NCBI GenBank assembly: GCA_949289145.1
Contig: CASEML010000064.1
Location: 1-39,920 of the forward strand
Reading direction: 5' to 3'
DNA from: an uncultured Eubacteriales bacterium
GTDB taxonomy: Bacteria > Bacillota > Clostridia > Lachnospirales > Lachnospiraceae
DNA length: 39,920 bases
Shown: in pieces, positions 1-31,307 of the stretch
Layout: every line of letters begins with the position of its first letter
Position numbering within the stretch: the first letter of the stretch is position 1
The notes under the pieces: generated by a model
What the model was told of the DNA's origin: nothing
What the model saw: the letters and a program-made list of their open reading frames with translations, nothing else
The model's database searches: none
Program-made: the position numbers and the translations under genes

Positions 1-434
1 TTACTTTAGCACCTATAAAAGTTCGTCATATGTCAAAAGAAGACGCTGAAAAGGTTGCAATGGAGCTTTTGACAAAGGTCGGTCTTGCAGATAAAGCATC
101 AGCTTACCCTCGTGAATTATCCGGTGGTCAGCAGCAGCGAGTGGGAATTGCCAGAGCACTGGTGATGGAACCGGATTTGCTGCTGTTTGATGAACCTACC
201 TCAGCATTAGATCCTGAGTTGGTAGGGGAAGTGCTAGAAAGTATTCGACAGGTGGCAAAAACCGGAATCACTATGGTGATCGTGACTCACGAGATTGCTT
301 TTGCCAAGGAAGCAGCTACCAGAGTAATTTTTATGGAAGGCGGCGTAGTAGTAGAGGACGGCACACCGGAGCAGGTCATTGATCACCCAAAACAGGAAAG
401 GACACAGGAATTTTTGTCCCGTATTAACGGTTAA
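1..434 (+). CDS. Amino acid ABC transporter ATP-binding protein (5' truncated by window edge)
   Basis: Energises uptake by a polar amino acid type ABC importer. The reading frame is open to the left edge (first full codon at position 3), so only the C-terminal part is present and the Walker A motif lies outside the window. Visible are the ABC signature LSGGQQQRVGIARAL, Walker B with catalytic Glu (LLLFDEPTSALDPE) and the switch His (VTHEI). The residues just before the in-frame ATG at 30 (TLAPIKVRH) match the conserved region of GlnQ/HisP-type ATPases, so that ATG is internal and not the start. The substrate-binding protein and two permeases follow on the same strand, separated from it by a MITE. 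Family assignment is secure; the substrate is unknown. Confidence 0.93.
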   Translation, partial: TLAPIKVRHMSKEDAEKVAMELLTKVGLADKASAYPRELSGGQQQRVGIARALVMEPDLLLFDEPTSALDPELVGEVLESIRQVAKTGITMVIVTHEIAFAKEAATRVIFMEGGVVVEDGTPEQVIDHPKQERTQEFLSRING

Positions 435-453
435 GGGTGATTTGACATAAGAA

Positions 454-632
454 ACTAAGAGGTAACAGTTCAGCCATGATATGTCATACAAGTGCATTAT
501 GTTTACATAAAATGCACTTGTATGACATATCATGAGCGGAACGCCTGTATATGAGCAAAAGCAGCTGCGAAGCGGCGGAAAGCACGTAGTGCGGTTTTGC
601 GAATGGCGTGTGCTGAACTGTTACACTAAGAG
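454..632. mobile_element. IS66-type MITE (462-624) with 8-bp target site duplication
   Basis: A 163-bp non-coding element at 462-624 has perfect 13-bp terminal inverted repeats, GTAACAGTTCAGC at 462-474 and its reverse complement at 612-624. It is flanked by a perfect 8-bp direct repeat, ACTAAGAG, at 454-461 and 625-632. Ends beginning GTAA with 8-bp duplications are characteristic of the IS66 family, so this is probably a non-autonomous derivative. Inside are a 24-bp-arm perfect hairpin (475-498 with 511-534) and a GC-richer segment whose ACGCC/GGCGT and GCAAAA/TTTTGC pairs can form a second stem. No ORF is supported. Removing the element and one repeat leaves a normal short operon spacer before the binding-protein gene. 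Confidence 0.85.
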
Positions 633-656
633 CATCACAACAAGGAGGTAATTGAC

Positions 657-1643
657 ATGAGAAAGAGAAGATTTAGTAAGAAGATGGCAACAGTGACAGC
701 TGCAATAATGATTGCAGGAGTATTGACAGCATGTGGAGGCTCTAACGCAGAAACAGCAGATACCACAGATACAATAGATACATCAGAAAGTACCGAGGCA
801 GAAAATACAAGTTCTTCCGAAACAAGCATTGCAGGAGTGAAGGAGAATGGAGATGGTACTTATGAAGTGACCGTAGCAGTATTAGACGGAATGGCACCAT
901 ACACTTACACCGATGAAAATGGTGAAATGCAGGGATATGATTATGAATGGATGCTGGCAGTGGATGAGAAGCTGGAAAATTACACCTTTAAATATGTATC
1001 TGTCAGTGCAGATGCGGCGGCAGCAGCAATTCAGGCAGGAACCTATGCGTTTTCAGCCTCCGCTCATTTTGTAACTCCGGCAAGAATGGAGAACTATATT
1101 TTAAGTATTCCACAGTCCTATTATCCGGTCAATTTAGTATCCCGGACAGAAGATAGTTTTACCAGCTTTGAAGAACTAGACGGTAAAGTGTTAGTTCCCA
1201 ATCCGCCAAACGATGGACTTTCTATTGTATTAAATCAGATGGCAGAAGAATATCCTGATGTACATTATACACAAGAGCCCACCTCAGAATATATTCCCTA
1301 TCTGGACGGTTTACAAGATGTAATTAAGGGAAGATACGACTGTTGGTTTGGCGGAGAAACCATGTACAATGATCTGATCGCAGCAGATCCTACTTTGGCA
1401 GAAAGCAGCTTTTGCTCAGAGCCGATTACAACAGCCAGCTGTGTAGCTGTGATCAACAGCAATCTGACAGATTTAAGAGAAGCGATTAATCAGGCAACCT
1501 GTGAGTTGTATGCAGAGGGTACACTGGCTGAATTATCAGAAAAGTGGCTGGGAAAAGATTATTTTAAGGTAGCAGAAGATACCAATTCCTTATTTGATTA
1601 TGCAAATTATTCAGCAGATCAGGCTGACTGGTATAAGGAATAG
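657..1643 (+). CDS. ABC transporter substrate-binding lipoprotein (SBP family 3)
   Basis: Extracytoplasmic solute receptor of the importer. A lipoprotein signal peptide is visible: basic N-terminus, hydrophobic core and lipobox LTAC with Cys26, followed by a Ser/Thr/Glu-rich linker. The mature part has the layout of family 3 binding proteins (APYTYTDENGEMQGYDYEW near the start, a TLAELSEKWLG-type C-terminal helix). A strong AAGGAGG lies about 10 nt before the ATG. The two permeases follow directly, completing the importer with the upstream ATPase. The ligand cannot be read from sequence; amino acids are typical for the family, but the linked dehydrogenases would also allow an oxidised or hydroxy-acid relative. 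Confidence 0.9.
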   Translation: MRKRRFSKKMATVTAAIMIAGVLTACGGSNAETADTTDTIDTSESTEAENTSSSETSIAGVKENGDGTYEVTVAVLDGMAPYTYTDENGEMQGYDYEWMLAVDEKLENYTFKYVSVSADAAAAAIQAGTYAFSASAHFVTPARMENYILSIPQSYYPVNLVSRTEDSFTSFEELDGKVLVPNPPNDGLSIVLNQMAEEYPDVHYTQEPTSEYIPYLDGLQDVIKGRYDCWFGGETMYNDLIAADPTLAESSFCSEPITTASCVAVINSNLTDLREAINQATCELYAEGTLAELSEKWLGKDYFKVAEDTNSLFDYANYSADQADWYKE

Positions 1644-1677
1644 AGTTTGTATATAGGCAAAAGCGGAGGTGAGCACA

Positions 1678-2400
1678 GTGACGGAATCATTACAAATTAT
1701 CTGGCATTATCTGCCGGCACTTTTAAAGGCATTGCCAACCACATTTTATCTATTAATCGTATCTGTGTTAATAGCAGCAGTTTTAGGATTTTTCTTAGCT
1801 TGGGCTAAGATTGGAAAAAACAAAATAACAAAAGCATTATCCAGTATATTTATTTCTTTTATGCGGGGAACCCCAATGATGGTGCAAATTTTGCTGGTGT
1901 TTATAATGATTCCGGTTTTTGCCAGTAATCATAACATTGATACCAGCACTTGGAGCCCTTCCGTTTATGCAATCATTGCTTTTTCGCTGAATATGGCAGC
2001 ATTTTTTGCAGAAATTTATCGTTCCGCATATATTTCACTGGACTACAGGCAGATTGAGGCAGCACAAAGCCTTGGTATGGGAAAAGTTCAAATTTTTCGC
2101 AGGGTGATCCTGCCACAGGGGGCGGCTACAGCCCTCCCCAATCTGACTAATATGTCACTGGAGTTAATGAAAAACACTTCCATTGCAGCAGTAATTGGCG
2201 TGTATGACATTTTAGGACGTGCCAGCCAGCTGGCGAAAAACAATTACGGCGTGGGGCAGATGGAGCTTTATATGACGGTGGCAGTACTGTTCTGGCTGAT
2301 TGGGCTAATTATTTTAAGTATTTCCAATGCAGTTACTGCAAGATTGAATCGTGGAAATCCCGCAAACAGAAAGCGCAGCCTGTTTGGTGCGAGAGGTTAG
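1678..2400 (+). CDS. Amino acid ABC transporter permease (HisM/GlnP family)
   Basis: First inner-membrane permease of the importer, 240 residues with about five hydrophobic segments. The EAA loop that contacts the ATPase is present as EAAQSLGMGKVQIFRRVILPQ. I chose the GTG at 1678 because GGAGG (1665-1669) lies 8 nt upstream; the in-frame GTG at 1669 overlaps that Shine-Dalgarno sequence and would add three residues. It ends with TAG overlapping the AGGAGG of the next permease, so the two are tightly linked in one operon. Family assignment is firm; the substrate is not determined. Confidence 0.92.
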   Translation: MTESLQIIWHYLPALLKALPTTFYLLIVSVLIAAVLGFFLAWAKIGKNKITKALSSIFISFMRGTPMMVQILLVFIMIPVFASNHNIDTSTWSPSVYAIIAFSLNMAAFFAEIYRSAYISLDYRQIEAAQSLGMGKVQIFRRVILPQGAATALPNLTNMSLELMKNTSIAAVIGVYDILGRASQLAKNNYGVGQMELYMTVAVLFWLIGLIILSISNAVTARLNRGNPANRKRSLFGARG

Positions 2401-2412
2401 GAGGAATCAGAT

Positions 2413-3180
2413 ATGTATCTAGTCACATGTTTTGAAAAAATATTTACAGGCTTACCTGTTACGCTGGGGTTGACCATAGACTCTATTCTTTTGGCATTGG
2501 CAGGCGGTATTTTACTCAGCTTAGGGGTAATATGCAGATTTCGCATTGTAAATATCATTTTTTCCATCGTTAATTCCTTTTTAAAAGGAATTCCCATTTT
2601 AGTATTTCTATATATGTTTAGTTCCGCTATGGATGATATTATGGGAACCTTGGCGGAAGTATTGAATTTTACTTATGATATCCGAAATCCGCCCACCTTT
2701 GCCTTTGCGGTAATTGCCATAACATTGTCCTATGCCCCTTATATGTGTGACATGATTGTGACGGCTATGGATACGGTACCGAAGGGACAATGGGAAGCAT
2801 GTGAGGCGTTTGGGTACACAAAATTGCAGACCATGACAAGGATTATTATTCCACAGTTTATTGTGATAGCCATTCCAAATTTCGGAAATCATTTTGTTAA
2901 TGTATTAAAAGCCACATCTTTAGCATGTATGGTTACGATTATGGAAATGATGGGAGTTGCAAGAAACTTTGCAACCTTAAATCAGAATTTTTTAGTGACC
3001 TATTTTGCATGTGCATTGCTTTACTGGGCAGTGTTTGTAATATTTGAACAGTTGTTCCGTCTGTTGGAAAAGCGGCTGGGAAGATACTTACAGCCTGGAG
3101 CTACGGTAACAAAAAAGAAAAGATTTCCGTTCAAATTTGTGAAGCATCAGACAGGAACTTTGGCAGAGGAGGGCAGATAG
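2413..3180 (+). CDS. Amino acid ABC transporter permease, second subunit
   Basis: Second inner-membrane permease, 255 residues, presumed to pair with the preceding one as a heterodimer. It carries an EAA-loop sequence (WEACEAFGYTKLQTMTRIIIPQ) and several hydrophobic helices. AGGAGG at 2399-2404 precedes the ATG by 8 nt. The C-terminus has a basic tail (KKKRFPFKF). The stop is 3 nt before the iron-type dehydrogenase gene, so import and metabolism appear to be co-transcribed. Confidence 0.92.
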   Translation: MYLVTCFEKIFTGLPVTLGLTIDSILLALAGGILLSLGVICRFRIVNIIFSIVNSFLKGIPILVFLYMFSSAMDDIMGTLAEVLNFTYDIRNPPTFAFAVIAITLSYAPYMCDMIVTAMDTVPKGQWEACEAFGYTKLQTMTRIIIPQFIVIAIPNFGNHFVNVLKATSLACMVTIMEMMGVARNFATLNQNFLVTYFACALLYWAVFVIFEQLFRLLEKRLGRYLQPGATVTKKKRFPFKFVKHQTGTLAEEGR

Positions 3181-24140: not shown

Positions 24141-24271
24141 GCAAACCTTTAAATGTGGACAGTTCGAAACCATCCTGTCCGAGCCGGTGACGGTTCAAAA
24201 CAAAACTAGGGACGACAATTGTAATTGTAACAAATTAAATTGTATCGTTGTGTAACATTGGAGGTGGACAT
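24141..24271 (+). promoter_or_regulatory. Candidate preQ1-type riboswitch leader of queT-queF-queC
   Basis: The leader has a stem GGACAG/CTGTCC (24157-24162 with 24175-24180), a second stem GAGCCG/CGGTTC with a GTGA tetraloop (24181-24196), then an A-rich tail AAAACAAAACTAGGGACGAC. That tail resembles the A-rich, CTA(A/G)G-containing 3' segment of preQ1-I aptamers before queuosine operons. A repeat CGACAATT ... AATTGTATCG lies between it and the ribosome site and could be the expression platform. The class cannot be assigned by eye; assignment rests partly on the genes it precedes. Confidence 0.45.
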
Positions 24272-24772
24272 ATGAAAAAGAATTTTAGTAAAACCCAAAA
24301 GCTTACAATTTCCGCCATGATCATGGCAATTTACATTGTAGTGCTTTATTTTACCCAGAGTTTTTCATTCGGGGCATATCAGATTCGCATTGCGACAACA
24401 TTGTATGCCTTAGCATATTTTTGTCCGTTCTTAGTTTTACCCCTTGGTCTTGCAAATTTTATAGCCAATGCTTTGTTTGGTGGTTTAGGTATTCTGGATA
24501 TGGTAGGAGGCTGTCTGGTAGGAATAGCAGCATCTGGCTGTATTGCAGGTATCCGTAGATTCAAATTGCCAAAACTTTGTATTGTGCCGGTGATTACTCT
24601 GATACCAGGACTTGGAGTGGCAACCTGGCTTTCCTATTGCCTGAACCTGCCTTATGGAGCATTAGCTTTCAGTCTTTGTATCGGACAGTTTGTACCGGCA
24701 GTGTGCGGCTGTACTTTAGTGACAGTTATGGAAAAGCGTTGGAATCCGCAAAAACAGCTGACAGAAGCATAA
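24272..24772 (+). CDS. queT: Queuosine precursor transporter QueT family protein
   Basis: A 166-residue membrane protein of the QueT family (formerly COG4708/DUF988), the likely S-component of an ECF-type importer for queuosine precursors such as preQ1. About five hydrophobic helices are visible; family-like segments include [18 protein letters not shown] and [22 protein letters not shown] 24272 is preferred because GGAGGTGG lies 6-8 nt upstream; the longer frame from 24248 overlaps that site. It precedes queF and queC in one operon, so salvage and synthesis are co-regulated. No energising ATPase is nearby, consistent with a shared ECF module elsewhere. Confidence 0.9.
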
Positions 24773-24786
24773 GAAAGGAAAGAACA

Positions 24787-25287
24787 ATGAGCAGTGGAAG
24801 AAACAAAACAGAGTTAGAATCTGTAACAATGCTTGGGAACCAGAAAACAATTTATAAGGACGATTATGCACCGGAAGTATTGGAATGGTTTCCCAATAAA
24901 CATCCTGACAATGATTATTTTGTGAAATTTAATTGTCCCGAATTTACCAGTTTATGTCCCATTACCGGACAGCCTGATTTTGCAGCCATCTACATTTCCT
25001 ATGTACCAGCAGAGAAAATGGTGGAAAGCAAGTCGTTAAAGCTATATTTGTTCAGTTTCCGTAACCATGGAGATTTTCATGAAGACTGTGTAAATATTAT
25101 AATGAAAGATTTGATTCGGTTAATGGAACCAAAATATATTGAAGTATGGGGAAAGTTTACTCCAAGAGGCGGAATTTCCATTGATCCATACTGCAATTAT
25201 GGAAAGGCGGGTACTAAATGGGAAGAAGTGGCCTGGAAACGCTTGGCAGAACATGATATGTACCCGGAAAAGGTGGATAATCGATGA
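24787..25287 (+). CDS. queF: NADPH-dependent 7-cyano-7-deazaguanine reductase
   Basis: Reduces preQ0 to preQ1 in queuosine biosynthesis. 166 residues is the size of the short (type I, single-domain) QueF. The catalytic Cys57 is in [14 protein letters not shown], and the NADPH-binding QueF motif [16 protein letters not shown] follows, then the Glu/His-containing FHEDCVN. ATG 24787 has AAAGGAAAG upstream and lies 14 nt after queT; the longer open frame upstream is out of context. Its stop overlaps the queC start (ATGA). Confidence 0.95.
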
Positions 25288-25970
25288 GTGAAAAATCATT
25301 AGTGTTATTTAGTGGAGGTGTAGACAGTAGCACCTGTTTAGGACTTGCCATAGAACGGTTTGGCAAGGAAAATGTGGAGACGTTGAGTATCTTTTATGGA
25401 CAGAAGCATAAAAAAGAGATGGAAGCTGCTGCTAAAGTACTGGAATACTATGGAATTAAGGGACAAAGCATAGATTTAACAGAAATGTTTGTCTATAGTA
25501 ATTGCTCTTTATTAAGCCATTCCAAAGAGGAAATTCCCAAATCTTCTTATGAGGAACAGCTTAAGGACAGGGAAGGCAGACCTGTGACTACTTATGTGCC
25601 CTTTCGCAATGGTCTGTTTCTTTCAGCGGCTGCCAGTATTGGTCTTTCCAAAGGATGTTCTTATTTGTATTATGGAGCTCATAGGGATGATGCAGCGGGA
25701 AATGCATATCCGGACTGCAGTGAAGTTTTTTACAATGCAATGAATGAGGCGATGATAGAAGGCAGCGGGCATCAGATTCATCTGGAGGCCCCATTTATTC
25801 ACAAAAATAAGGCTCAGGTAGTAGCAGAAGGACTGCGCTTGAACGTACCCTATGAGCTTACTTGGAGCTGTTATGAAGGCGGCGGAAAGCCATGCGGCAC
25901 TTGCGGAACCTGTATAGACCGGCGGAAAGCCTTTGAAGCTAACGGGATACAAGACCCGGCAATGAAATAA
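25284..25970 (+). CDS. queC: 7-cyano-7-deazaguanine synthase
   Basis: ATP-dependent conversion of 7-carboxy-7-deazaguanine to preQ0. The N-terminal PP-loop [13 protein letters not shown] binds [21 protein letters not shown] is a family segment; the C-terminal zinc site has four Cys ([20 protein letters not shown]). 228 residues is the normal length. It overlaps queF by 4 nt, implying translational coupling. queD and queE are not in the window, so the earlier steps are encoded elsewhere or the cell depends on imported precursors. Confidence 0.96.
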
Positions 25971-26184: not shown

Positions 26185-26234
26185 TTGACAATTAATCGAA
26201 CATATGTTACCATAAAAATACGAACAAACATTCG
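26185..26234 (+). promoter_or_regulatory. Promoter with two LexA-box-like sites before the radical SAM repair genes
   Basis: Consensus TTGACA at 26185-26190, 17-nt spacer, TACCAT at 26208-26213. CGAACATATGTTAC (26197-26210) overlaps the spacer and -10, and CGAACAAACATTCG (26221-26234) lies at the start site. Both resemble the Gram-positive LexA/DinR box CGAAC-N4-GTTCG: the first has an intact left half and GTT of the right, the second differs by one base in the right half. This predicts SOS repression. Confidence 0.65.
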
Positions 26235-26254
26235 AGACGGAGCAAGGTGGTTAT

Positions 26255-27547
26255 ATGGAAATCAGGATATCAAATCATGAAATGGATATTATGGAGAAGC
26301 TGGCAATTCTTACAGATGCGGCCAAATATGATGTGGCGTGTACCTCTAGCGGAAATGACCGTAAGAATAGGGGAGATGGATTGGGAAATTGTGTGCAGGC
26401 GGGAATTTGTCATTCCTTTTCGGCAGACGGAAGATGTATTTCTCTATTGAAGATTCTTTTTACCAATGAATGTATTTACGATTGCAAATATTGTATCAAC
26501 CGTTCCTCCAATGATGTGAAACGTGCTTCTTTCACTCCGGAAGAGGTGTGCTTTCTTACCATGAATTTTTATAAACGAAATTATATTGAAGGGCTTTTCT
26601 TAAGCTCCGGAATTCTCTATAGCCCGGATTATACCATGGAATTAATTTATCAGACCATTTATAAATTACGTACAGAATATAAGTTTAACGGTTATATCCA
26701 TGTTAAGGCAATTCCCGGTGCAGATCCCAAATTAATTGAAAAAACTGGTTATCTTGCCGACCGAATGAGTATAAATTTAGAACTTCCCACAAAAGAGGCA
26801 TTATCTAAGCTGGCACCTCACAAGAACCGGAAAAATATATTGACACCTATGCGCTTAATTCAGAACGGAATTACAGAAAATAAAAACGAACTGGTGGTGT
26901 ATAAGCATGCCCCTTCCTTTGTGCCTGCAGGGCAGAGCACTCAAATGATCTTAGGGGCAGCAGGGGAAACGGATTATCAAATGCTTATGGTGGCACAATC
27001 TTTATATAAAAAATTTGACTTAAAAAGAGTGTTTTATTCAGCCTTTGTGAAGGTTAACGAGGACAAAGATTTGCCTGCACTGCCTGGAGGACCGCCCTTG
27101 CTGCGGGAACACAGAATGTACCAGGCAGACTGGCTTATGCGTTTTTATGGATTTAAAGCGGAAGAACTGCTTAGTGAAAGCCGGCAGAATTTTAATATTT
27201 TAATGGATCCTAAGTGTGATTGGGCATTACGTCATTTGGAATTGTTTCCTATTGAAATTAATCGTGCAGATTATGCTACTCTTTTGCGGGTGCCGGGAAT
27301 AGGTGTGAAATCGGCCAGGAGAATTGTGGCTGCCAGAAGAACTGCAATTCTCGATTTTGATGATTTAAAGAAAATTGGTGTCGTATTGAAAAGGGCTGTT
27401 TTTTTTATTACCTGCAATGGGAAGAACCGTTATCCCTTCAAATATACAGAAGAATTTATCAGCAGCAATCTGATAGATCAAAAAGAAGTATACCAATATA
27501 GCGATGGTATGGTATATCGACAGATGAATCTGTTTGAAGATGTGTAA
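26255..27547 (+). CDS. Putative DNA modification/repair radical SAM protein (TIGR03916 family)
   Basis: A 430-residue radical SAM protein. The [4Fe-4S]/SAM motif is C73-x3-C77-x2-C80 (NECIYDCKYCINR). Upstream Cys residues in YDVACTSSGND and GNCVQAGICHSF are typical of this family. A helix-hairpin-helix DNA-binding motif is near residue 346 (RVPGIGVKSARRI). The last residues contain Q423-M-N-L-F427, matching the bacterial sliding-clamp binding pentapeptide. This family is consistently paired with the DUF4130 protein, encoded next here, and elsewhere with a uracil-DNA-glycosylase-like domain. LexA-like boxes lie in the promoter. The chemical reaction is unknown; a spore photoproduct lyase-like lesion repair is only an analogy. 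Confidence 0.88.
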   Translation: MEIRISNHEMDIMEKLAILTDAAKYDVACTSSGNDRKNRGDGLGNCVQAGICHSFSADGRCISLLKILFTNECIYDCKYCINRSSNDVKRASFTPEEVCFLTMNFYKRNYIEGLFLSSGILYSPDYTMELIYQTIYKLRTEYKFNGYIHVKAIPGADPKLIEKTGYLADRMSINLELPTKEALSKLAPHKNRKNILTPMRLIQNGITENKNELVVYKHAPSFVPAGQSTQMILGAAGETDYQMLMVAQSLYKKFDLKRVFYSAFVKVNEDKDLPALPGGPPLLREHRMYQADWLMRFYGFKAEELLSESRQNFNILMDPKCDWALRHLELFPIEINRADYATLLRVPGIGVKSARRIVAARRTAILDFDDLKKIGVVLKRAVFFITCNGKNRYPFKYTEEFISSNLIDQKEVYQYSDGMVYRQMNLFEDV

Positions 27548-27563
27548 GAAAGAGGTGATATTT

Positions 27564-28343
27564 GTGGAAAACATACAGAAAAAGAGAATACTGTGTGAAG
27601 ATTCCATTGAAGGTATTTTTTCCGGTGTTTATTATATTTATGAAAAAAAATATGAGAAAAGAGGTATAGAACTAAAGGTTGAAGGCAATAATCAAAATTA
27701 TGAATTGTTTATAATTGACGAATTTGTACCGGTAGATATGGAAAATGCTGTCAAAGTTGCTAGAACGGTTCAAAACAAATTCGGGCAGGAAGTATACTAT
27801 ACTCTATTAAGAACGGCTCTGTCCAAAGAAAAAGATTACAAAGCTCAGGCAATATTTGGAACAATTCAGTATGGAATCAGCAACAATGTGGCAACAGATT
27901 TGTTAAATTATCTTAAAAGAAAAGAAATTTATCAGGTGTTTCAGTTAAACCGAACAGTAGCTAATGAAGCCAATAAATTTCTTCAATTTATACGGTTTCA
28001 GGAACTGTTCAATGGGGTGCTGTACGCTAAAATCGCACCGGAAAACAATGTGTTGCCGCTGCTTGCAGAACATTTTACAGACAGATTAAAGAATGAGAAT
28101 TTTATGATCTACGATGAAAACAGAAAGATGGCATTAGTTTACAATAGGGAGAAACACTGGGAAATATATGAAAATATCATAGTAGAAGAAGAACAATTAC
28201 AAATGGCAGAATGTGAAGAAAATATGAAAAAGCTTTGGAAAACATTTTATGAATCTATTGCCATTAAGGAAAGAAGTAATTTAGAATTACAAAGGCAGCT
28301 TTTACCGTTAAAATTCCGAAAATTTATGACGGAATTTGTCTAA
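27564..28343 (+). CDS. TIGR03915/DUF4130 putative DNA metabolism protein
   Basis: A 259-residue protein of the DUF4130 family, the regular partner of the preceding radical SAM protein. Family-typical segments include FLQFIRFQELFNGVLYAKIAPENNVLPLLAEHF, FMIYDENRKMALVY and the C-terminal LWKTFYESIAIKERSNLELQRQLLPLKFRKFM. In some bacteria this domain is fused to a uracil-DNA glycosylase-type domain, which is absent here. GTG 27564 is chosen because GAGGTGAT lies 5 nt upstream and the start then follows the radical SAM stop by 16 nt; the ATG at 27534 overlaps that gene without a ribosome site. Function unknown; DNA repair inferred from pairing and SOS-like promoter. Confidence 0.88.
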   Translation: MENIQKKRILCEDSIEGIFSGVYYIYEKKYEKRGIELKVEGNNQNYELFIIDEFVPVDMENAVKVARTVQNKFGQEVYYTLLRTALSKEKDYKAQAIFGTIQYGISNNVATDLLNYLKRKEIYQVFQLNRTVANEANKFLQFIRFQELFNGVLYAKIAPENNVLPLLAEHFTDRLKNENFMIYDENRKMALVYNREKHWEIYENIIVEEEQLQMAECEENMKKLWKTFYESIAIKERSNLELQRQLLPLKFRKFMTEFV

Positions 28344-28487
28344 AAATTACATGAAAAATAAAAAAATATTACAAAAAAATTAAGCAATGTGGAGAAAATA
28401 TAAAATTCCAACAAAATAGGACAATGTTATTGGTAAAAATGCACAAAAACACAGGAAACTGGAAAAAGAAATGAGTTTCCACGGGGA

Positions 28488-28515
28488 TTGACATTTGTAA
28501 TAAACGGTGTATAAT
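28488..28515 (+). promoter_or_regulatory. Strong sigma-A promoter of the HPr-like gene
   Basis: Consensus TTGACA at 28488-28493, 16-nt spacer, consensus TATAAT at 28510-28515. A hairpin GGAAACT/AGTTTCC (28454-28460 with 28474-28480) lies just upstream. The leader is about 85 nt, ending in AAAGGAGAG. Confidence 0.7.
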
Positions 28516-28607
28516 ACAAACATAGTTAAATTATTATGAAGTCAAAGTAAAAACAAAGTAAGAAACATACGTGATAAACGGATTGTTATTAAAAAGGAGA
28601 GTTTATT

Positions 28608-28835
28608 ATGCAGGAACGTAAAATTAAGTTAAATGAGTTACAGGATGTAAAGGAGTTTGTATCAGCAGCAGGTAAATGTGATTTTGATATTGATATCTTC
28701 TACAACAGAGTAACCATTGATGCAAAATCAATTCTTGGTGTTTTAAGCATGGATTTAACACATGATCTTACAGTACAGTACTTTGGAGAAGATACAAGTT
28801 TTGAATCTGTATTAAGCAAATATGCAGTTGCCTAA
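28608..28835 (+). CDS. HPr-like protein lacking the phospho-histidine segment
   Basis: A 75-residue small protein whose second half follows the HPr fold: FDIDIFYNRVTIDAKSILGVLSMDL lines up with HPr up to the regulatory Ser46 region (KSIMGVMSL). The N-terminal strand is present, but the GLHARPA loop carrying the phosphorylated His15 is missing and replaced by LQDVKEF. It therefore cannot be an ordinary PTS phosphocarrier; a regulatory role like Crh is possible. It stands alone behind a near-perfect promoter and before a strong terminator, which suggests high expression. Confidence 0.82.
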   Translation: MQERKIKLNELQDVKEFVSAAGKCDFDIDIFYNRVTIDAKSILGVLSMDLTHDLTVQYFGEDTSFESVLSKYAVA

Positions 28836-28869
28836 TAGGTGAAAGGAACTTTTTATTGTTATTAACTGG

Positions 28870-28902
28870 AAACCCCTCTTTAACTTTTAAAGAGGGGTTT
28901 TT
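28870..28902 (+). terminator. Intrinsic terminator of the HPr-like gene
   Basis: 12-bp perfect stem AAACCCCTCTTT/AAAGAGGGGTTT with a 7-nt loop, running into TTTTT. Confidence 0.93.
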
Positions 28903-28931
28903 GGTGTTTAAGAAATAGTGAGAGAGAACAT

Positions 28932-31307
28932 ATGCAGATAGAAAATGAAATACTGGTAAGAGTTTCTGTTCGGAATTTTGTGGAATTTTTACTTCGCAGT
29001 GGGGACATAGACCAGAGGCGAGGGGCTTTTAAGGAGCGGGACGCCATGGCAGAAGGCAGCAGGCTTCATAGAAAAATTCAAGGGAAAATGGGCGTGGAAT
29101 ATAAGGCGGAAGTAAGTTTAAAGCATGAAGTGCAGTTAGATGACATTATCTTGTCCATTGAAGGAAGGGCAGATGGGATTATTACGCCTTTGAAAGAGGA
29201 CAGTCCTATTGTTATTGATGAAATTAAATGCGTATATAAAAATCTTCGTTATATAAAGGAAGCGGAAGAAATACATCTGGCACAGGCAAAATGTTATGCC
29301 TATATCTACGCTGTACAGAATGATTTGAGTGAAATACAGACTAGAATCAGTTATTGCAACATAGAAACGGAAGAAATGAAATATTTCCATGAAACGCATA
29401 CAATTTTTCAACTGAGCAGATGGTTCGAGGAACTGGTGTTCGAATATGAAAAATGGATAGATAATTATACGCAGTGGAGAAAGGTAAGAAATACATCGAT
29501 TGAGAAAATGGTGTTTCCCTTTGCTTATCGAAAGGGACAAAAGGAACTGGCAGCCTTTGTTTATCAGACCATAGAGCAAGGAAAAAGGCTATATATTCAG
29601 GCACCTACAGGTACCGGAAAAACGCTGATCTCATTATATCCCGCAATCAAATCGGTGGGGAAGGGCAGAGGGGAAAAAATATTTTATTTGACGGCAAAGA
29701 CCATTACCAGAACTGTGGCAAAGAATACCATGGAAATGTTAGGAAAACACGGTTTGAACTATCGTGTACTGGTATTAACTGCCAAAGAGAAAATATGTTT
29801 TCTGGAGGCAATGGAGTGCAATCCGGTAACTTGTCCTTATGCAAAAGGTCATTATGACCGTGTGAATAACGCAGTATATGATATGATTACTCATGAAACT
29901 ATGTTCGACAGAGAAAAGATAGAAGAGTATGGGAAAAAGCATCAAGTTTGTCCCTTTGAATTAGGACTGGATATTTCTCTATGGGCAGACTGCATTATTT
30001 GTGATTATAATTATGTCTTTGATCCTAACGTATATTTAAAGCGTTTTTTTCAGGAAGGAGTAAAGGGAGATTATATTTTTCTGGCCGATGAGGTACATAA
30101 CTTGTTAGAACGAGGCAGAGAGATGTACAGTGCCACATTATATAAAGAGGATTTTTTAGAAGTTAAGAATTATGTGAAGAACAACAGCAAACGTCTTGCA
30201 AGCCGTTTAGAAACCTGTAATAAACATTTGTTGGAATTTAAGCGGGAATGTGAAAACTGTCAGGTAGTGGAGAACATTGCAGGATTCACCATGAGCCTTT
30301 TGCGGTTGCAAAGCGAGATCGAGAAGTTTTTAGATAACGATGATATCTTAGAGGATAAGCAGGTTGTTGTTGAATTGTATTTGAATATAAGGCATTTTCT
30401 GAATATGTATGAACTGGCTTCGGAAAATTATCTTGCTTATGCAGAGCACACAGAGAATGGAAAGTTTAAGATAAAATTATTTTGTGTGAATCCTGCCGCA
30501 AATTTGAAAGAATGTATGGAGCGGGGCAGGGCTTGTGTATTGTTTTCGGCCACATTACTTCCTATCAAATATTATAAATCCCTGTTAACGGAAGAAAGTG
30601 ATAATGCGGTATATGGTATTTCGCCCTTTGATTCTGCGAAACGATGTGTGGCAGTAGCAACGGATGTAAGTTCCAAGTATACAAGAAGAAACAAGAATGA
30701 ATATGAAAAAATAGCATTTTATATCAAAGCAGCTTCCAAAGCAAAACAGGGAAATTATTTAGTGTTTTTTCCATCTTATGCATTTATGGAGCAGGTTTAT
30801 GATATTTATGTACAGGATTTTTTGAGTCAAGATGAAAAAATCCTGATGCAGTCAAATCAGATGACAGAGGAAGAACGGGAAAAATTTCTTAACGAATTTG
30901 AGCAGACAGATAGAACACTGATAGGATTTTGTGTTATGGGTGGCATTTTCAGCGAAGGCATCGACTTAAAGGCAGAACGACTGATTGGAAGTATTATTGT
31001 GGGAACCGGTTTGCCGGGCATTAGCAACGAAAAGGAATTGCTGAAAGCTTACTTTGACCAAGAGGGCATGAATGGTTTTGATTATGCCTATCGTTTTCCG
31101 GGGATGAATAAAGTGCTGCAGGCAGCAGGCAGAGTTATCCGGACAATGGAGGATACCGGTGTGGTACTTTTACTGGATGAACGCTTTGCGACCCGGGAAT
31201 ACCGCATGATGTTTCCAAGAGAATGGCAGGAGATAAAATATTGCAATCAGAAAACGGTGGAGCAGGTATTAGAAGAATTTTGGCGCAGCAATAAAAATTT
31301 TTTATAA
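28932..31307 (+). CDS. Rad3/XPD-like DNA helicase with N-terminal PD-(D/E)XK nuclease-like domain
   Basis: A 791-residue DinG/XPD-family helicase. Residues 1-170 resemble a RecB/Cas4-type nuclease fold, with the pattern GRADGII, then VIDEIKC (E-x-K) and AQAKCYAYIYA (Q-x3-Y). Walker A is QAPTGTGKTLIS near residue 224; the DEVH box is near 385. Between them are Cys residues (KICFLEAMECNPVTCPY and VCPFELGL) fitting the XPD iron-sulfur cluster. C-terminal helicase motifs include VLFSATLLP, FSEGIDL and QAAGRVIR. It probably acts in DNA repair or restart, translocating 5' to 3' if it follows XPD. It follows the HPr terminator with no clear promoter; a GAGAGAG site precedes the ATG. Confidence 0.88.
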   Translation: MQIENEILVRVSVRNFVEFLLRSGDIDQRRGAFKERDAMAEGSRLHRKIQGKMGVEYKAEVSLKHEVQLDDIILSIEGRADGIITPLKEDSPIVIDEIKCVYKNLRYIKEAEEIHLAQAKCYAYIYAVQNDLSEIQTRISYCNIETEEMKYFHETHTIFQLSRWFEELVFEYEKWIDNYTQWRKVRNTSIEKMVFPFAYRKGQKELAAFVYQTIEQGKRLYIQAPTGTGKTLISLYPAIKSVGKGRGEKIFYLTAKTITRTVAKNTMEMLGKHGLNYRVLVLTAKEKICFLEAMECNPVTCPYAKGHYDRVNNAVYDMITHETMFDREKIEEYGKKHQVCPFELGLDISLWADCIICDYNYVFDPNVYLKRFFQEGVKGDYIFLADEVHNLLERGREMYSATLYKEDFLEVKNYVKNNSKRLASRLETCNKHLLEFKRECENCQVVENIAGFTMSLLRLQSEIEKFLDNDDILEDKQVVVELYLNIRHFLNMYELASENYLAYAEHTENGKFKIKLFCVNPAANLKECMERGRACVLFSATLLPIKYYKSLLTEESDNAVYGISPFDSAKRCVAVATDVSSKYTRRNKNEYEKIAFYIKAASKAKQGNYLVFFPSYAFMEQVYDIYVQDFLSQDEKILMQSNQMTEEEREKFLNEFEQTDRTLIGFCVMGGIFSEGIDLKAERLIGSIIVGTGLPGISNEKELLKAYFDQEGMNGFDYAYRFPGMNKVLQAAGRVIRTMEDTGVVLLLDERFATREYRMMFPREWQEIKYCNQKTVEQVLEEFWRSNKNFL

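Follow-up and report, generated by a model that had tools for sequence, protein, structure and literature searches.

Conserved LexA boxes point to SOS control of a radical-SAM/DUF4130 gene pair in Lachnospiraceae

The two adjacent genes considered here encode a DUF4130 protein and a radical-SAM protein with a helix-hairpin-helix, from the NCBI family TIGR03916, which we take to be COG4277; their current annotation reads 'putative DNA modification/repair'. An initial annotation of the window (the whole stretch of 39,920 nucleotides that was analysed) noticed two LexA-box-like sites in front of the pair and read them as a sign of SOS control. The locus raises the question of whether the pair is indeed regulated by LexA and, if so, what such regulation would say about its function. 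The window's contig (C64) comes from a 2.93-Mb genome that is 88% complete, and the nearest named relatives at the radical-SAM gene are Lachnospiraceae with at most 75% protein identity, a value given with the caveat that records very close to the window's genome may be missing. Lachnospiraceae are anaerobes.

The SOS link is not wholly new, because published predictions already cover one Clostridium and relatives bearing a uracil-DNA glycosylase (UDG). LexA control of the Clostridium acetobutylicum pair CAC3343-CAC3344 was predicted from footprinting and expression data (PMC3828012); the accessible part of that paper deals with one species and leaves DUF4130, UDG and the relatives unnamed. 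A COG1573-COG4277 UDG operon belongs to the predicted SOS network of Bacteroidetes and is read, in the excerpts available, as UDG-based, uracil-related repair (PMC8565304), with earlier reports cited there for Verrucomicrobia and Alphaproteobacteria. Judging from those excerpts, it resembles the window's pair in being a predicted SOS-regulated two-gene operon and differs from it in having a UDG and other LexA motifs, whereas the window's pair shows the Gram-positive motif and no TIGR03914 match over cut-off. Radical-SAM genes are also placed under LexA, as here, in a Gram-positive core regulon (PMC7739468) and in Streptomyces (vnz_31145; PMC9380542), but the available passages leave the radical-SAM family unspecified. 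According to the sections at hand, SplB is SOS-regulated in several species (PMC8565304) and DUF4130 is a predicted mutagenesis-related enzyme associated with SplB-like proteins and UDG (PMC3765255). SplB, the spore photoproduct lyase (SPL), performs radical-SAM DNA repair, and the window's protein differs from it by a cysteine trio and a helix-hairpin-helix. Our literature search returned no functional test of the radical-SAM/DUF4130 pair, and an earlier report may exist in subscription papers. New here are the scale of box conservation, the UDG-free form of the pair, the promoter layout, the cysteine trio and a fold lead for the DUF4130 protein.

Promoter and LexA-like boxes of the pair

The layout of the locus is collected in Table 1. 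The letters bear out where the initial annotation had placed the two boxes, as well as the -35 hexamer TTGACA (26185-26190) and the -10 hexamer TACCAT (26208-26213), and the boxes depart from the exact palindrome CGAAC-N4-GTTCG at two positions (box 1) and one position (box 2). Box 1 covers spacer and -10, and box 2 sits just downstream. In the scan that scored this core promoter, the region had 15 promoter-like sites, compared with 11.0 in shuffles. Read by eye, the right half of box 1 (GTTAC) is poor because its bases are shared with TG-N-TACCAT.

Table 1. Coordinates of the pair, its promoter and the boxes (positions in the window)
Feature	Position	Strand	Basis or remark
Core promoter TTGACA / 17-base spacer / TACCAT, TG before -10	26185..26213	+	10/12 consensus letters
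LexA box 1, CGAACATATGTTAC	26197..26210		in spacer and overlapping -10; 13.4 bits
LexA box 2, CGAACAAACATTCG	26221..26234		about presumed transcription start; 14.4 bits
Ribosome-binding-site-like AAGGTGG	26244..26250	+	by eye; precedes ATG 26255
Radical-SAM protein, TIGR03916, 430 aa, C-terminal helix-hairpin-helix	26255..27547	+	profile scores
Codons C29 through C52 to C61, three extra near-invariant cysteines	26339..26437	+	174-row alignment
Radical-SAM motif C73-x3-C77-x2-C80	26471..26494	+	100% conserved, 174 aligned rows
Helix-hairpin-helix, residues 333-374	27251..27376	+	PF12836, 29.8 bits (cut-off 27)
DUF4130 / TIGR03915 protein, 259 aa from GTG	27564..28343	+	profile scores; start by eye

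Simple pattern counts do not set these sites apart. The loose pattern (up to two mismatches) has 8 matches in the window, where 6.81 are expected, and at least as many as 8 are found in 38 of 100 shuffles. Allowing one mismatch to a tighter consensus yields 6 forward and 7 reverse hits in the genome, no enrichment over the 7 and 8 hits of the control pattern. The exact palindrome is found at one place in the whole genome and its reversed control pattern at four. That sole copy (L001 1501-1514, G000:C71:15243-15256; 18.6 bits) is flanked by the 3' ends of the convergent ORFs 1-1461 (+) and 1529-2611 (-) and is therefore probably no operator of either.

With the counts indecisive, we built the motif from classic LexA-target promoters. 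Thirty lexA loci of the same family were collected, of which 29 had upstream sequence (L070, with 22 bases, was dropped); the genome's own lexA promoter was among the 29, and radical-SAM promoters were absent from the training set. The resulting matrix, with the consensus CGAACATATGTTCG from 121 sites, finds at least one site above 9 bits in all 29 lexA promoters. At least four such sites occur in 23 of the 29, more than the few usually present at lexA elsewhere. In the window's genome, lexA scores 247.6 bits, over the family cut-off, and has five boxes upstream, while the box of recA (572.7 bits) ends 17 bases before the ORF start; the genome has a LexA with the same motif at lexA and recA. 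This matrix gives the two window boxes their scores in Table 1, and three other sites in the window reach at least 13 bits (3044, 14765 and 29787), all within ORFs. Taken alone, each box is mediocre.

Conservation of the boxes in genus, family and phylum

Of 200 family genomes, 112 have a TIGR03916 match over cut-off. The family set comprised 110 loci, one per genome and the window's own included (L153 is a partial gene below cut-off), and 109 were scanned from -250 to +15 with a threshold of 12 bits, after dropping L140 with its 33 bases upstream. A box of at least 12 bits precedes the radical-SAM gene in 106 of these 109 loci, and 80 have two or more. Dinucleotide shuffles, on the other hand, gave a mean of 1.3 loci, with at most 4 in any of ten runs; a box turned up in 1 of 433 coding windows and in 1 of 590 windows further upstream in named relatives. 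As for the three misses, L117 reaches 11.4 bits at best, while a post hoc look found a 15.4-bit site at -292 in L125 and a 15.0-bit site at -253 in L146, both just beyond the scanned stretch. A set of 80 named loci showed a box in 70, although this set overlaps in kind with the family set and is not independent of it.

Within the genus, four of five genomes have the radical-SAM gene, and all three other orthologs keep at least one box. L356 and L357 preserve TTGACA and both boxes, which stand 24-25 bases apart, with box 1 again over the -10; L358 keeps box 2 and has lost box 1, so that a box stands at the box 2 position in all three (15.7-17.7 bits). Recurrence upstream of the pair in relatives was the test proposed by the initial annotation, and its outcome is strongly positive at both levels.

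At the level of the phylum, 65 of 299 genomes, our own included, carry TIGR03916 over cut-off. The phylum set consisted of 64 loci, all outside the family (L225 falls just below cut-off), of which 63 were scanned, L191 being dropped with 88 bases. Forty-nine of the 63 have a box of at least 12 bits, compared with 0-2 in ten runs of shuffles and 4 of 192 coding windows. Three of the 14 loci without such a box score below zero, so control through the Gram-positive motif is not universal in the phylum. Three TIGR03916 matches (L173, L183 and L225) have neither a DUF4130 gene found nearby nor a LexA box, and offer a natural test of whether the two go together.

The position of the boxes was also informative. 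In 82 of the 109 family loci, a sigma-70-like promoter match accompanies the box, and in 76 of these 82 a box overlaps the stretch from -35 to +20, against 31 by random placement. The two best boxes of a locus tend to lie 27-30 or 55-61 bases apart. The peaks of this spacing, at 57 bases (13 loci) and about 28, correspond to about one and two 28-base steps. Such a layout suggests a repressor that blocks the polymerase. Taken globally, the promoter comparisons indicate that the pair is almost certainly under LexA control, and the SOS control put forward in the initial annotation is supported by the family (106/109) and phylum (49/63) counts together with the motif at the genome's own lexA and recA.

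The two proteins and their neighbourhood

Profile searches agree with the families named initially for both proteins. The radical-SAM protein scores 698 bits against TIGR03916 (cut-off 343.5), with PF04055 and PF12836 also over cut-off, and the DUF4130 protein scores 219.1 bits against TIGR03915 (cut-off 112.25) and 157.8 bits against PF13566 (cut-off 27). The 174 aligned rows that show full conservation of C73, C77 and C80 also show 99-100% conservation of C29, C52 and C61, a trio that might hold a second Fe-S cluster. This possibility is read from conservation, because the predicted model falls below pLDDT 50 around C29 and C52 (residues 30-34 and 48-60). In the helix-hairpin-helix, the same alignment shows conserved P347, G348 and G350, a pattern typical of DNA binding. 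The closest solved folds of the radical-SAM part, among the matches listed, are lipoyl synthase, MqnE and HydE, none of which is known to act on DNA; MiaB and RlmN are listed too. Profile matches in the PDB (18 up to E = 1) include no SPL chain, and there is none in the 50 structure matches listed for the model, where absence excludes nothing.

In 108 of 110 family loci, the DUF4130 gene lies behind the radical-SAM gene and on its strand, and both exceptions lie at or near contig ends (L081 is cut off by the end of its contig, and the partial gene L153 is close to one); a profile search finds DUF4130 nearby in 59 of 64 phylum loci. By eye, the gene probably starts at the GTG at 27564 and not at the mechanical ORF start at 27534. 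Foldseek relates the DUF4130 model to DHH/DHHA1 proteins (RecJ, Cdc45, NrnA and PAP phosphatase) with a low TM-score of 0.34 on the query and an rmsd of 11.4. The likeness is confined to predicted structure: the DHH metal-binding motif was not found in the DUF4130 consensus of 55 sequences. Profile comparison gave no signal of kinship to RecJ, NrnA or GdpP, with hhalign reaching at best 1.0% probability against DHH proteins versus 0.7% for an unrelated radical-SAM control; its sensitivity here is low, because NrnA and AlaRS, which share DHHA1, reach only 1.2%. By sequence, no PDB chain was matched up to E = 1. On this model-based evidence, we would give even odds to a RecJ-like DUF4130 partner.

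Behind the pair lies a Rad3/DinG-type helicase (28932-31307; TIGR00604, 176.2 bits, below the cut-off of 246.95). Among 75 family loci with at least 1 kb behind DUF4130, out of 79 inspected, such a helicase is the same-strand neighbour in 17, in 8 of them within 100 bases of the pair, and stands on the opposite strand in one more; being next to the pair on the same strand in only 17 of 75 loci, it is an optional neighbour. We rejected the helicase as a LexA target of its own, with no site above 0.5 bits at 28344-28950 and a 12-bit box in 0 of 17 relatives. A perfect TTGACA-16-TATAAT stands upstream of it at 28488-28515. No Pfam model matched helicase residues 1-200, and by eye we suspect a PD-(D/E)XK nuclease in this N-terminal part. 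On the other side, the pair adjoins a queuosine set (24248-25970) made up of QueC, a QueT transporter and an ORF that looks QueF-like by eye. A tblastn search for QueC in the surroundings of the radical-SAM gene in relatives gave no hit in any of 159 stretches, 79 of which reach only about 800 bases upstream.

Mechanism, alternatives and meaning

The best overall explanation, to which we assign a probability of roughly 0.83, is a LexA-repressed two-gene operon for damage-induced radical-SAM/DUF4130 repair or processing. In undamaged cells, LexA on the two sites, over the -10 and the transcription start, would shut the promoter; upon DNA damage, RecA would become active, LexA would cleave itself and both proteins would be made, as expected from the way the SOS circuit is known to work. 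The radical-SAM protein, probably with two Fe-S clusters (C73/C77/C80 for SAM and C29/C52/C61 for the second), would bind DNA through its helix-hairpin-helix and use radical chemistry to repair or process a damaged base or sugar. Its DUF4130 partner, which may be a RecJ-like fold with altered catalysis, would present or clear the DNA end or lesion. A role of the pair in handling DNA damage is very probable in our view, while radical repair of the lesion by a two-cluster enzyme could equally well turn out true or false. Regulation does not prove lesion repair, because SOS genes need not be repair enzymes.

This last point leaves room for a reading in which the boxes are LexA operators and the pair modifies tRNA, nucleotides or protein during the SOS response, not DNA. 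The closest listed folds (lipoyl synthase, MqnE and HydE, with the RNA enzymes MiaB and RlmN) would suit it, but it has to account for a helix-hairpin-helix over cut-off with P347, G348 and G350 conserved, for regulation together with lexA and recA and for the same-strand helicase in 17 of 75 loci, and we regard it as improbable. That the boxes arose by chance, or serve another regulator, is the least credible of the alternatives; the pattern is indeed at chance level in window and genome, yet the conservation in 106 of 109 loci, set against shuffled, coding, further-upstream and helicase windows, leads us to reject a chance origin, and the same motif stands at lexA and recA.

SOS control could also serve the UDG that accompanies the family in other phyla, an idea put forward for Bacteroidetes, where the available text names uracil-related repair for the COG1573-COG4277 operon (PMC8565304). 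Separate UDGs do exist in some family genomes: 12 of 200 have sub-cut-off TIGR03914 matches, six of these at 105-140 bits, and the two of the six that were tested, both in pair-bearing genomes, are family-4 UDGs over that family's cut-off. No TIGR03914 match over cut-off, however, occurs in any of the 200 family genomes, in keeping with the pathway without a fused UDG proposed initially; the window's own genome (88% complete) gives no match either, and in the phylum set the DUF4130 ORFs run no more than about 30 residues past their DUF4130 match, too little for a C-terminal UDG. Since the boxes are kept where this UDG is missing, SOS control goes with the two-gene core; we reject the TIGR03914 UDG as the reason for it in the family and hold the UDG-serving account to be very unlikely overall.

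Near-universal LexA boxes in this one family, without a TIGR03914 UDG, place the SOS-induced activity in the radical-SAM/DUF4130 core. A broader picture, tentative and as a whole rather unlikely, is that anaerobes have an inducible lesion-repair pathway whose ancestral core is the UDG-free pair. In this pathway, a two-cluster, DNA-binding radical-SAM enzyme would reverse or excise a lesion for which no other repair enzyme is known, and DUF4130, as a RecJ/Cdc45-like DHH fold that has lost its metal site, would read DNA ends; the UDG of other phyla would be a later addition and the reading as SOS-induced uracil repair would be wrong. The residues to mutate would be C29, C52 and C61 beside C73, C77 and C80, together with R144, R174 and R237 of DUF4130, for which a RecJ-like fold is the thing to look for. 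The SOS link itself provides a simple genetic handle for finding which damaging agent makes the pair necessary.
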